Positions 10,181 through 14,127 of a DNA stretch of 43,978 nucleotides are shown here, one piece after another; positions within the stretch are counted from its first letter, which is position 1; each line of letters begins with the position of its first letter. The stretch comes from Hydrogenobacter sp. (GTDB lineage: Bacteria; Aquificota; Aquificia; Aquificales; Aquificaceae): contig JAGDVY010000040.1 in NCBI GenBank assembly GCA_023255875.1, forward strand, positions 1 through 43,978, in the 5' to 3' direction. The translations under genes were made by a program, and so were the position numbers. Below the pieces are notes generated by a model. It made no database searches. It was not told the origin of the DNA and was given only the letters and a program-made list of their open reading frames with translations.

Positions 10181-10731
10181 ACCTTGAAGTAAGAAGGAAG
10201 ATCTTTCATCTTTTAGCCATAAGCTTGTGGCTTATACCTTTGATGTTCTTCCCTACATGGCTTGTTGTTCTTAGCTTTTTGGTGGTAATTATCCTAAACC
10301 TGCTTTTGATCAACAAAGTAGGAATAAATTTTTTTCCTGCGCTTTATCGCATCGTGTTTTACTTTGAAAGGGAGAAGAACCTGCAAAAACCGGGCATACA
10401 GGCACTTTGGGCTAACTTGGGCATCGCTCTTAGCTTTTTAGTATTTGGAAGAGAATGTGCCATTATAGGTGTGATCCTTCTTGCGGTAGGTGATGTCTTT
10501 TCCAATCTTATAGGCACAAAAATAGGAAGAACAAGACTTTTGGGAAAAACCTTAGAAGGTTCTTTAGCCTTTTTCTTTTCTACTCTTTTAGTGCTTTACT
10601 TTTTTCTTGGACTCAAAGGTGCTCTGGTAGTTTCTTTGGTGGGTGCCATAGTAGAGCTCCTTCCTTTGGGGTTAGATGACAACTTTACCCTACCTATTGT
10701 AGGAAGCTTTGTGTGTTTTGTGTTAAAGTAG
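10174..10731 (+). CDS. Dolichol/phytol/diacylglycerol kinase-like integral membrane protein
   Basis: The 185 residues contain about six membrane helices and the conserved signatures of the CTP-using SEC59/DGK1/VTE5 group: RRKIFHLLA at the N-terminus, GDVFSNLIGTKIGRTRLLGKTLEGS in the middle and DDNFTLPIVG near the end. These enzymes phosphorylate a lipid alcohol (dolichol, phytol or diacylglycerol) in the membrane. It overlaps the CBM48 gene by 7 nt and ends convergently with the lipoate-ligase fusion, overlapping it by 9 nt. A plausible role is lipid or isoprenoid-alcohol salvage; the actual substrate is not known. Confidence 0.8.
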   Translation: MLNLEVRRKIFHLLAISLWLIPLMFFPTWLVVLSFLVVIILNLLLINKVGINFFPALYRIVFYFEREKNLQKPGIQALWANLGIALSFLVFGRECAIIGVILLAVGDVFSNLIGTKIGRTRLLGKTLEGSLAFFFSTLLVLYFFLGLKGALVVSLVGAIVELLPLGLDDNFTLPIVGSFVCFVLK

Positions 10732-12906
10732 CTTGAGTATCTCTTCAAGCTTTTGTGCATCTGTAAAGCTTGTGGAGAGGTCCGCAGAGGGATGTCCATA
10801 AAGACCGCATAGGGCAACTACCTTTGTATCAGTGTACTTTTTCAGAAGTCTTATCACAAAGTCCGTTCTGTAGCAATGAACCCCTACTAGTATGGTAAGA
10901 TCGTGTTTTCCGTGAAGTACTGCGTGGTGAGGATTAGGTGGGTCCATTTCTACCAAAGGATCGTACTTTTTAAGTTTGGGTCTGTAATCTGGAAGTACTT
11001 TCACATTGAACTTTCCCACTTTTTCTATGATCTCTCTTAGCACTCTGCCTTTCTGTAGTAGTTCTTCTTCCTGCCAATCCCAAAAGAGCAGAGGACCTAT
11101 CACCACAGTGGGCCTTTCTGCAGACTTTATCCACTTGACGAGCAGTTCCACCGCAGACCTAAAGGACACAGGCTGATCACCAATGGTGGCCTCACCTTTG
11201 AACACTTCCTTTTGCATGGAAGTTCTTGTCATGTCCTCTTCAGGTGTAGGCACCGCCTTAGGTTTCTTGTAATAGGGTGGCTTGAAATCCACAAAGTGGG
11301 GAGAAAAGTCAAAGTTTCTTCTTTTTACCCTTTGGGTATGAGTGTCCACATCGGGCTTTATGGACATAACTTTATACATGTCTTCTTTTATCAAATCCAG
11401 TTCAACGGTAAATTCTCCATGATATGCCTTTTCTTCTTCTTCCACACCCAAGCTGTAGCAAGTGGTACCTACTATGTCAAAGAGAACACCATTGGCACCC
11501 TGCTCAGAAGCCTTAGAAAATATCTCGTACCTCTTTTCGTAAAACTCATAACAGCAATGGCCTATGTATGTGTAGCCATTTTGCGCACACCACAAAAGAG
11601 TGTCTCTTAGAAGCTCAAAGGATGTTATAGTTATGGGTATCATACCCTTCTGATAGGCTAACCTGTAAGCATCTCCTACACTACACCCTCCACACTCTCC
11701 ACAATCATCAAGGTGTCTATAATCGCACCATCTGGGCTTAGCACAGTAAGGAAGGAGCATAACTTTAGCCTTTTCAATGTTTTCCTTTAGTCCACCGCCT
11801 ATGCTGGCTATTATGTTATTCAGCCTTTTTTTTTCAAGACCTAAATCTAAGCCTTCCACTTTCCTAATGGGAAACATCACAGCATTTACAAAATCATCTA
11901 CTGTTAGGTTCAAAGCTTCCCAATCCCTTCCTTCAAAAAACTCCCTTATCCTCTTTTCTACATCTTGCAGTGGTGTGTGTTTCAAATAGGCTTCAAGGTC
12001 GTAGATGAGTCTCTGAGGTTTCACAAAAAAGTCTCCATTTATAACGACTTGCTCTAATACCTTAGCCTTTGTATCCAGCTTTACGGACACCCTGAAAGTA
12101 CCACCCGGACATCTGTGTATGCCAAAGAGTACATCACTGTCCTTTGCAGAGGACTTCACATGGTATATCCACTCTTCACTGGCAAAGTAATCTTTCTTTT
12201 CCTCCATAAGCTTTAGTTCCTCATCTGTAAGCTCTCCCCAGCTATAGGTTATTCCCAGCTCCTCCGCAAGACCTTGCAGTATGGCAGAAAAAATTTCCTC
12301 CTTTGGAGGTATATATCCCAAAAGACGCTTGACCCACTCTATCCTGTCCTCCGCTGATTTTATGCCTTTGGATGTTAGCTTCTCAACAGGTATTTGAAGA
12401 GATTTAAGCATCCTCTCCACATTCATATCCACAAGCAAAGTTCCCTGATAAAGGAAAGCGCTTCCCTCAAAAACGCCACCCGTTCCTGATATCTTTCTAC
12501 CATCTACTTCTATGTCATTCCTGGGTCTAAAGCTTGCGTTTATTCCCAGCTTTCTGAGTCCCCTTGCCACACCGTTGCATATTTTTGCGGTAATCTCCTC
12601 AAAGCTACCCCCTTTTATGTCCCTTCTGTCCGCTATAACTTCCCAACCTATCTGTAGCTCGTCAAAGTATATAGCTCCTCCTCCTGTTATTCTCCTTCCA
12701 ACCTGTATGCCCTCCCTTTGGGTGTACTCTGTCCTTACCTCTTCCTCAATAGATTGATGGAAACCTACAAGTACGCACTCGGGTTTAAACTGTAAAAACC
12801 TTATGGTGTTAGGTATTTTTCCCTCCGCCTTTAGATCAAGCATAACCCTGTCAAGGGCTATATTTTCGTAGTGGGGTCTTTGTCCTGTATATACAACTCT
12901 CCACAT
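10723..12906 (-). CDS. LplA-type lipoate ligase fused to DUF116 and a CdhB-like domain
   Basis: A 727-residue three-part protein. Residues 1-240 form a biotin/lipoate-ligase (LplA/LipB) catalytic domain with GRRITGGGAIYF and the lysine region NDIEVDGRKISGTGG. Residues 250-350 match the LplA accessory C-terminal domain (CPGGTFRVSVKLD and VINGDFF). Residues 360-500 are DUF116-like and Cys-rich (CAKPRWCDYRHLDDCGECGGC, then GHCCYEFYEKR and VGTTCYSLG), able to hold a metal or Fe-S centre. The last 130 residues resemble the epsilon subunit of archaeal CO dehydrogenase/acetyl-CoA synthase (VVIGPLLFW, HDLTILVGVHCYRT, GLYGHPSADLS). GGGAGGT precedes the ATG. Its natural target is unknown; GcvH-like or sHdr-linked lipoate-binding proteins are candidates. 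Confidence 0.85.
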   Translation of the reverse strand: MWRVVYTGQRPHYENIALDRVMLDLKAEGKIPNTIRFLQFKPECVLVGFHQSIEEEVRTEYTQREGIQVGRRITGGGAIYFDELQIGWEVIADRRDIKGGSFEEITAKICNGVARGLRKLGINASFRPRNDIEVDGRKISGTGGVFEGSAFLYQGTLLVDMNVERMLKSLQIPVEKLTSKGIKSAEDRIEWVKRLLGYIPPKEEIFSAILQGLAEELGITYSWGELTDEELKLMEEKKDYFASEEWIYHVKSSAKDSDVLFGIHRCPGGTFRVSVKLDTKAKVLEQVVINGDFFVKPQRLIYDLEAYLKHTPLQDVEKRIREFFEGRDWEALNLTVDDFVNAVMFPIRKVEGLDLGLEKKRLNNIIASIGGGLKENIEKAKVMLLPYCAKPRWCDYRHLDDCGECGGCSVGDAYRLAYQKGMIPITITSFELLRDTLLWCAQNGYTYIGHCCYEFYEKRYEIFSKASEQGANGVLFDIVGTTCYSLGVEEEEKAYHGEFTVELDLIKEDMYKVMSIKPDVDTHTQRVKRRNFDFSPHFVDFKPPYYKKPKAVPTPEEDMTRTSMQKEVFKGEATIGDQPVSFRSAVELLVKWIKSAERPTVVIGPLLFWDWQEEELLQKGRVLREIIEKVGKFNVKVLPDYRPKLKKYDPLVEMDPPNPHHAVLHGKHDLTILVGVHCYRTDFVIRLLKKYTDTKVVALCGLYGHPSADLSTSFTDAQKLEEILKLL

Positions 12907-13055: not shown

Positions 13056-13630
13056 CTACCTTGAGAACTTGCCAAGTATTCCCACCTTGGGCTTAAAGTC
13101 CAAATCTTCTACATCTATAAGAGCGTTCATATCTAAGCGGAGTGCCTTATTGTATTCGTATTGAGCGTTCAAAAGGTCTTTTCTTTTCTCTCTGTATATG
13201 CTCTCAAGTTGATACACTTTCAAGTTTGTAGAGATACCTAAATCTTTTTTCTGTCTTGCCCTATCATATCGCACATAAGCTATTGCCATCTCTTCTCTCT
13301 TTACTTCTGTGAGCTTTTTATACAAGATTGCCTTTGTAAAAAGCTCCAGTATTTTGAGCTTTATATCCCTCTCCAGCTGTTTTAGGGCTTCCTTCTTTAT
13401 CTCATGCCTTAGTTCCGCACTTTTAATTCTTGATGTGGTTTTTCTATACTCGTAAAGAACACTCACCGAACTAACACCGAAGAATTTTTTCCAGTCTTGA
13501 GTTTTTGAATTGTATAAGATGCCAGCTCCCAAGTTTATGTGAGGTAAGAAATAATTTTTTGCTTCTTGCCATTGGAAGTGTGTGGATCAAAGGTAAAGGA
13601 AAGAAAAAGTAATGTGATCAGAAATGTCAT
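13056..13630 (-). pseudogene. Short TolC-like outer-membrane protein, frameshifted
   Basis: The frame open from 13532 to 13056 encodes long amphipathic coiled coils typical of TolC-family efflux proteins (LGAGILYNSK, then DLGISTNLKVYQLESIYREKRKDLLNAQYEYNKAL). In the same frame WQEAKNYFLPHINLGAG continues upstream to a TGA at about 13590. A different frame supplies the missing beginning: an ATG at 13630, overlapping the previous stop as ATGA, encodes MTFLITLLFLSFTFDPHT, a clear signal peptide. Joining them needs one indel between about 13560 and 13585 (a CACACA tract or an A6 run). The joined product is about 190 residues, half the size of TolC. Downstream a third frame runs to a TAA at 12976 with protein-like sequence (VAVAIPLLGKSFTRDFSSLI), hinting at a second frameshift. 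Confidence 0.6.
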
Positions 13631-14127
13631 TTACTATTTTCTCTTATGAACTTAACGAGATTTGTGTTTTTGTAGTGCCCTTCCACTATATACCTTCCTA
13701 TTAGGATAAACTCTTTGGGTTCTATATAGCCTGGGACCTTTGCTACCACATTACCTTGCTGATCAAAAAACATAAATACGGGTGTTAGTCACACTCCATA
13801 CTTGTGAGCAAACTGTCTTTCAGTCATCTTTTTACCGTCCACATCTACCACTTTGTTAGATCCTCTTATGTCAATCTCCACCATGTAAAAGTGTTTTGTA
13901 AAGTAGTCCTGTACTCCCTTATCCTGAAAAGTGACCTTCCTCATCTTGTCGCAAAAGGGACATCCTTCTTGGTGAAACATGATGAAAAGATACTTTCCTT
14001 CCCTTTTGGCATCCTCAAGGTCATCCTTTAGGTTCAGCATGGAAGGCTTTAGAAAGGGAATTCTTAATACTGCGGACATACAAACAAGGGGCAGAAGTAA
14101 AATGAGAGTAAGAACATACTTTTTCAT
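13627..14127 (-). pseudogene. SoxW-like thioredoxin with premature TGA
   Basis: An exported thioredoxin-fold protein: signal peptide (1-18), redox motif GCPFC (Cys56, Cys59) and TERQFAHKYGV, then an in-frame TGA at 13789-13791. The same frame continues as LTPVFMFFDQQGNVVAKVPG and ends naturally at 13627. The continuation supplies the conserved cis-Pro strand and C-terminal helix, so the stop falls inside the domain. Family members usually have Arg or Gly here, so CGA to TGA is the simplest explanation. Selenocysteine is unlikely because the redox cysteines are elsewhere. It overlaps mtnB by 4 nt and the TolC-like gene by 4 nt. The family reduces periplasmic disulfides, in some bacteria linked to sulfur oxidation. 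Confidence 0.7.

Follow-up and report, generated by a model that had tools for sequence, protein, structure and literature searches.

A lipoate ligase joined to DUF116 and to a delta-subunit-like domain in Aquificaceae: co-occurrence with LipS1/LipS2 and a candidate dnaX-like slippage site

Background

The window analysed in this work is a stretch of 43,978 nucleotides of Hydrogenobacter sp. (contig JAGDVY010000040.1). On its reverse strand, a single gene joins a lipoate ligase to the cysteine-rich domain DUF116 and to a domain of the family that contains CdhB, the epsilon subunit of CO dehydrogenase/acetyl-CoA synthase (CODH/ACS). The question raised by this gene is which lipoate system such a protein serves, and what the two additional domains contribute to it. 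An earlier note on the window, made from the sequence alone, had tentatively placed the fusion, as a ligase that senses or uses redox or a metal centre, in a lipoate-dependent C1 or sulfur system. Here we describe a computational analysis according to which the fusion, together with a probable dnaX-like mode of decoding, is probably a variant of the known sLpl(AB)-LipS1/S2 system. The strongest clues are a candidate slippage site of nine As (A9) between the ligase and DUF116 and the way in which the functions of the protein are partitioned in Hydrogenobaculum.

Domain composition of the fusion protein

The features of the gene are listed in Table 1. The three-domain fusion claimed in the earlier note is real, as seen from matches to Pfam and NCBIfam models and from orthologues throughout the family. 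It occurs family-wide in Aquificaceae and in no other Aquificota, and since single-contig genomes from many genera contain it, it is not an assembly artefact.

Table 1. Features of the fusion gene (positions in the window; residues of the encoded protein)
Feature	Position	Strand	Remark
Fusion gene LplA-LplB-DUF116-(CdhB/POR-delta-like)	10723..12906	(-)	727 aa, ATG start; orthologues across Aquificaceae
LplA catalytic domain, residues 1-250	12157..12906	(-)	R71R72-x-T74-GGGA, N130 D131, catalytic Lys K138; Pfam E 1e-43
LplB accessory domain, residues 255-350	11857..12144	(-)	NF053749 and fold match to complete ligases
Cys266 in LplB motif YRCxGGTFR	12109..12111	(-)	present in all DUF116-linked forms, the degenerate one of Hydrogenobaculum among them
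A9 run, codons 358-360, candidate programmed slippage site	11826..11834	(-)	ligase/DUF116 junction
Stops in both other frames just past A9	11816..11822	(-)	TGA 11822-11820, TAA 11818-11816
DUF116 module, residues 376-510	11377..11781	(-)	most conserved part of the protein
Cys cluster C388-x5-C394-x7-C402-x2-C405-x2-C408	11683..11745	(-)	invariant in 25 full-length fusions
CO_dh/CdhB-family domain, residues 569-727	10726..11202	(-)	third paralogue beside POR-delta and FOR-delta

The ligase part is matched by the Pfam model LplA-B_cat (150 bits, E 1e-43, residues 12-213) and by TIGR00545 (174 bits over residues 12-328). The accessory domain that the earlier note had recognized is clearer with NCBIfam NF053749 (50 bits, cut-off 65) than with Pfam Lip_prot_lig_C (17.4 bits, cut-off 24), and the predicted structure of the N-terminal ~350 residues resembles complete solved ligases, for instance 5ich, 8cri and 5iby (E about 1e-22). 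The key residues (RR-x-TGGGA, ND and K138) are all present, are invariant in the 23 fusions from outside Hydrogenobaculum, and align with those of the solved ligases. By its domains and key residues, the N-terminal half is classified as a full lipoate ligase, Lpl(AB), for which acyl-adenylation and transfer to lipoyl carriers are predicted.

Two decayed genes lie upstream of the fusion gene on the same strand: a thioredoxin-like gene (13789-14127), in which an in-frame stop follows residue 112 with LTPVFMFF... encoded beyond it, and a gene for an outer-membrane efflux protein without its N-terminal part (13056-13532). In Aquifex (L112, 13064-14766), apparent longer versions of the two genes stand side by side.

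The DUF116 assignment holds for the family more firmly than for the window protein itself. Of the 51 Aquificota genomes that match the model PF01976, 50 do so above its cut-off of 25 bits, whereas the window protein scores 22.6 bits in a whole-protein scan (residues 378-427) and 22.6-25.0 bits over the various stretches scored; a stand-alone relative reaches 36.9 bits. The cysteine-rich character is borne out by nine Cys that are invariant across 25 aligned full-length fusions, the family being marked by at least six conserved Cys. These residues, namely C388, C394, C402, C405, C408, C440, C451, C452 and C483, are likely Fe-S ligands. Structure prediction, which the earlier note had suggested for each part, is informative for the ligase and not for DUF116, the model of which has low confidence (pLDDT 65) and, being weak, finds no fold match among PDB structures at E<=0.001; therefore, the structure gives no inference on the cofactor. 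No credible match was found in a sequence search of PDB for DUF116, nor any match in a plasmid search, and a pattern scan of genome contigs beyond Aquificota returned Aquificaceae alone, the patterns being too specific.

DUF116 (arCOG02078) has been proposed to act in electron transfer (PMC5898192). The fusion module shares with the proteins described there at least six conserved Cys, a CxxCxxC-like motif, an alpha/beta fold and the proposed electron-transfer role, but it is divergent (25-37 bits), has no N-terminal membrane helices and is joined to a ligase. In the literature searched, we found no earlier report that joins DUF116 and lipoate; a DUF116 protein is now tied to a named pathway, LipS1/LipS2 lipoate assembly.

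The third domain is matched by Pfam CO_dh (124 bits, E 7e-36, residues 569-724), so the likeness to CdhB holds at the level of the Pfam family that the two share. However, the fusion does not reach the cut-off of the CdhB equivalog model TIGR00315 (22 vs 101 bits), and the domain is akin to the delta subunits of pyruvate and 2-oxoglutarate:ferredoxin oxidoreductase (POR-delta and FOR-delta). The genome of the window contains two further members of the CO_dh family. Both lie inside 2-oxoacid:ferredoxin oxidoreductase operons and correspond to POR-delta and FOR-delta, from which the fused copies are set apart as a third clade that evolves faster. We thus classify the domain, on these comparisons, as a third paralogue of the delta subunit and not as a CODH subunit. 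Like the delta subunits of the five-subunit Aquificaceae enzymes (PMC10052474), it has the CO_dh Pfam match and the DYRPK and PNPH motifs, is about 30% identical and occurs in the same genomes; unlike these subunits, which are free, it is joined to the ligase and DUF116. Delta subunits have been termed intriguing and described as confined to the five-subunit enzymes of Aquificaceae (PMC10052474); the fusion domain gives this so far unexplained subunit a third relative. A link to CODH/ACS was rejected, because the equivalog model fails and the paralogues are POR/FOR subunits; A. aeolicus has been reported to lack ACS genes (PMC10052474).

The A9 run at the ligase/DUF116 junction

The A9 run at the end of the ligase part is the sole run of nine A or T on either strand of the 44-kb window, where dinucleotide shuffles give an expectation of 3.4. 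Among the 37 distinct in-frame genes, the run at this junction is A9 in all but one, which has A10. It sits in three codon phases (EKK-R, D-KKK-L, GKK-N and others), and both other frames stop 3-11 codons further on in all 37 genes. While 64% of the Lys codons of these genes are AAG, Lys-Lys is written AAAAAA in 51 of 51 junction cases vs 28 of 193 elsewhere, and only five runs of at least nine As occur in 622 kb of other predicted ORFs; the counts are not independent, as related sequences are among them, but synonymous sites next to the run vary freely.

In seven further genes the frame is broken exactly at this run, which is A9 in six and A8 in one, and in all seven one extra A restores the frame. 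As all seven come from draft assemblies, homopolymer errors are possible, and one may ask whether the run and the frameshifted genes are simply mutation or assembly noise around a single protein, the fusion, given that A-runs mutate easily and that one copy is A8. We consider this very unlikely, because A9 is kept in three codon phases, with AAA codons despite the preference for AAG, is present in single-contig genomes, and persists in the frameshifted copies as A9 rather than A8 or A10 in six cases, with the same direction of shift in all seven. Moreover, purifying selection acts on the shifted frame past the run: for the 22 codons between the run and the next Met, pN/pS is 0.15, so that a restart at this Met would not explain the conservation.

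A homopolymer within a coding sequence, with in-frame and out-of-frame alleles coexisting in genera g6, g9 and g11, is also what one would expect of phase variation at the DNA level, by which some cells would make DUF116-CdhB and others not. This explanation appears the least probable of those considered, since the length of the run is near-invariant at nine, the downstream frame is intact in all shifted alleles, which suggests steady expression, and the function is neither surface nor antigenic.

Programmed slippage at A9 is, in contrast to both, strongly supported by comparison of the sequences. The best precedent is dnaX of Thermus thermophilus, in which nine As with stops in both other frames cause about half of the product to be short (PMC1088944, PMC5009743). 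The two cases have in common nine As in frame, near stops in both other frames, a thermophilic host, and a short and a long product, which in our case are predicted; they differ in gene and function, and slippage in the fusion gene is predicted from its sequence. In the seven frameshifted alleles the logic of dnaX would be reversed, in that, as in Shigella mxiE, slippage is needed for the long product. No RNA structure that might stimulate ribosomal frameshifting was found near A9 (z 0.91), and transcriptional slippage is therefore favoured. The terms lipoate and Aquifex are absent from a survey of frameshifting (PMC3711429). The fusion would probably add a biosynthetic gene to the cases of dnaX-like decoding.

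Co-occurrence of the fusion with LipS1 and LipS2

We surveyed 136 Aquificota genomes, including 64 of Aquificaceae, 43 of which are at least 90% complete. Among these 43, the DUF116 fusion and LipS1/S2 are both present in 40 and both absent in three, with no discordant genome; presence in the 40 means at least one of LipS1 and LipS2 (40/40). Outside Aquificaceae, none of LipS1, LipS2 and DUF116 was found over the 136 genomes. LipS1 exceeds its model cut-off in three proteins scanned, and LipS2 scores ~205 bits, below the cut-off of 270, with all other proteins at 83 bits or less. The sHdr-lbpA cluster carries a true LipS1 and, in Hydrogenobacter, also LipS2. The record RFFP01000022.1 (L068) goes by the name "Acidobacteria bacterium isolate J001"; it is an Aquificaceae-type genome of 1.5 Mb that is placed with G077, and the database name is likely wrong.

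The three genomes with neither constitute genus g3. They keep sHdrB at 82% identity, have 6-7 GcvH/LbpA-type genes and contain LipA. In the g3 genome that was opened (L191), the sHdr-LbpA locus is intact, with two LbpA genes beside sHdr, and lipS1 is missing where Hydrogenobaculum has lipS1. The earlier suggestion that the fusion goes with sHdr or GcvH proteins themselves is not supported: these three genomes have both without the fusion, exactly where LipS1/S2 are missing, and we rejected sHdr and GcvH as its determining partner. What stands of the proposed lipoate-dependent system is the sulfur type, that is, sHdr/LbpA lipoate metabolism through LipS1/LipS2; the C1 or CODH/ACS alternative does not.

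A further case of joint absence is G016, which is nested in Aquifex and 89% complete. It lacks not only LipS2 and the fusion but also the dsrE-lbpA-lipS1 genes that Aquifex has between sHdrB and dxr. The sHdr-like locus concerned (L193, 2180-6812) is reduced and divergent, with TusA, DsrE-like and Hdr-like genes followed directly by dxr. G087 was rejected as an additional case because its contig ends just after sHdrB. Overall, the link of the fusion to LipS1/LipS2 is well supported by co-occurrence, which consists of few independent events (one genus, g3, and the one nested genome, G016), because the position of g3 is not fixed by the Pnp tree.

The fusion gene adjoins lipS1 or lipS2 in no genome checked. 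In Aquifex, a second ligase gene, LplA2, is near lipS2, and LplA2 could be the partner of LipS1/S2 instead of the fusion. In the lineages of G012, G005 and G014 (L180, L181 and L182), LplA2 is diverged or shortened (263-322 aa), and its LplB motif is lost or degraded.

The ligase of the sLpl(AB)-LipS1/S2 pathway in Hyphomicrobium and Thioalkalivibrio (PMC10332631, PMC6067878) likewise has LplA and LplB domains and co-occurs with LipS1, LipS2 and sHdr/LbpA. The Aquificaceae ligase differs from it in adding DUF116, the CdhB-like domain and the A9 junction, and in that its gene lies outside the shdr-lbpA-lipS cluster.

The correlation with LipS1/S2 might be one of coincidental ancestry if the CdhB/delta-like domain served to anchor the ligase to pyruvate or 2-oxoglutarate:ferredoxin oxidoreductase in an rTCA metabolon; the domain is homologous to POR-delta and FOR-delta, and both complexes are present in these genomes. 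Yet g3 and Hydrogenothermaceae-type genomes have POR/FOR-delta without the fusion, and in G010 an unfused pair of LplAB and DUF116 genes occurs without the CdhB-like domain, so that we regard anchoring as quite unlikely.

Hydrogenobaculum and unfused forms

In Hydrogenobaculum, the fused LplA is only about 30% identical, with K138 replaced by Arg, ND by TQ and the GGG motif lost, and yet its DUF116 is 85% identical and its CdhB-like part 57%. A separate ligase gene of the same genomes encodes the closest relative of the fused ligase and keeps all of the catalytic residues. Catalysis in Hydrogenobaculum has, as these residues indicate, moved to the separate ligase. The fusion gene there has no A9, the ligase being a separate gene, and LipA was not found above its cut-off in Hydrogenobaculum.

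The division between the two proteins can be followed site by site. The conserved ligase sites number 144; the separate ligase alone retains 62 of them, mainly in residues 1-165, and the decayed fusion alone 19, including K168, T178, G181 and Cys266. At the position of Cys266, the stand-alone ligase of Hydrogenobaculum has Thr, and LplA2 has no Cys. Because Cys266 and the loop of residues 166-190 both survive where catalysis is lost, we assign them to a second function.

Since the ligase half has decayed next to a DUF116 that is 85% identical, DUF116-CdhB must have a role independent of a working ligase in cis. This bears on the proposal that DUF116-CdhB is a redox or iron sensor by which the ligase is regulated in cis, with no chemical service to LipS1/S2, which is suggested by the physical fusion and by the nine invariant Cys of DUF116. 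The Hydrogenobaculum fusion has a nearly unchanged DUF116 and a catalytically dead ligase, which leaves nothing to be regulated in cis; furthermore, the fusion co-occurs with LipS1/S2 and not with ligases in general. We therefore consider regulation in cis unlikely.

Unfused forms are also found elsewhere. G010 has neighbouring genes for the ligase and for DUF116, and no CdhB-like domain. In G017 (L195, 3597-5785), the halves are separate ORFs, with DUF116 intact and a CdhB-like end that lacks the LYGHP motif.

A proposed mechanism

Taking these results jointly, we give about an even chance to the reading that the gene encodes the lipoate/octanoate:protein ligase of the LipS1/S2 route in Aquificaceae, which is made as two products through slippage, the fusion serving LipS1/S2 in redox or Fe-S repair. 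First, RNA polymerase or, less likely, the ribosome would slip on the conserved A9, so that part of the product stops at once as a free Lpl(AB) of ~362 residues and the rest is the 727-residue fusion. The long form would then act together with LipS1/LipS2, the enzymes by which octanoylated lipoyl carriers, LbpA for example, receive their sulfur. Its ligase part would octanoylate and/or dock the carrier, with Cys266 and the loop of residues 166-190 serving the second, non-catalytic function, and the Fe-S-type DUF116 and the POR-delta-like domain would pass ferredoxin electrons to LipS1/S2 or rebuild the auxiliary clusters that these enzymes sacrifice, a task ascribed elsewhere to the flavoprotein LipT. 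We infer this redox or Fe-S-restoring role.

The reduction of LipS1/LipS2 and the replacement of their Fe-S clusters are a standing question. In vitro, LipS1/S2 perform no more than 1-1.5 turnovers with ferredoxin/FNR (PMC9585515), and LipT, a flavoprotein and proposed donor, is present in only about 53% of the bacteria with LipS1/S2 (PMC10332631). A more specific reading, which we put forward tentatively, is that slippage at A9 yields the free ligase and a fusion dedicated to LipS1/LipS2, and that the latter, in bacteria without LipT, is the partner, so far missing, that reduces LipS1/LipS2 in vivo or restores their clusters. As a concrete candidate, the fusion lends itself to expression and assay.

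Beside the sHdr-LbpA genes of Hydrogenobaculum (L144, 4895-7063) and of g3 (L191, 10072-12134) lie genes whose products resemble PyrK (a FAD/NAD protein) and GltD. This NfnAB-like pair is a possible electron entry for sHdr or for lipoate assembly. One FAD protein encoded near lipS1 in Aquifex resembles thioredoxin reductase only and is no evident LipT.
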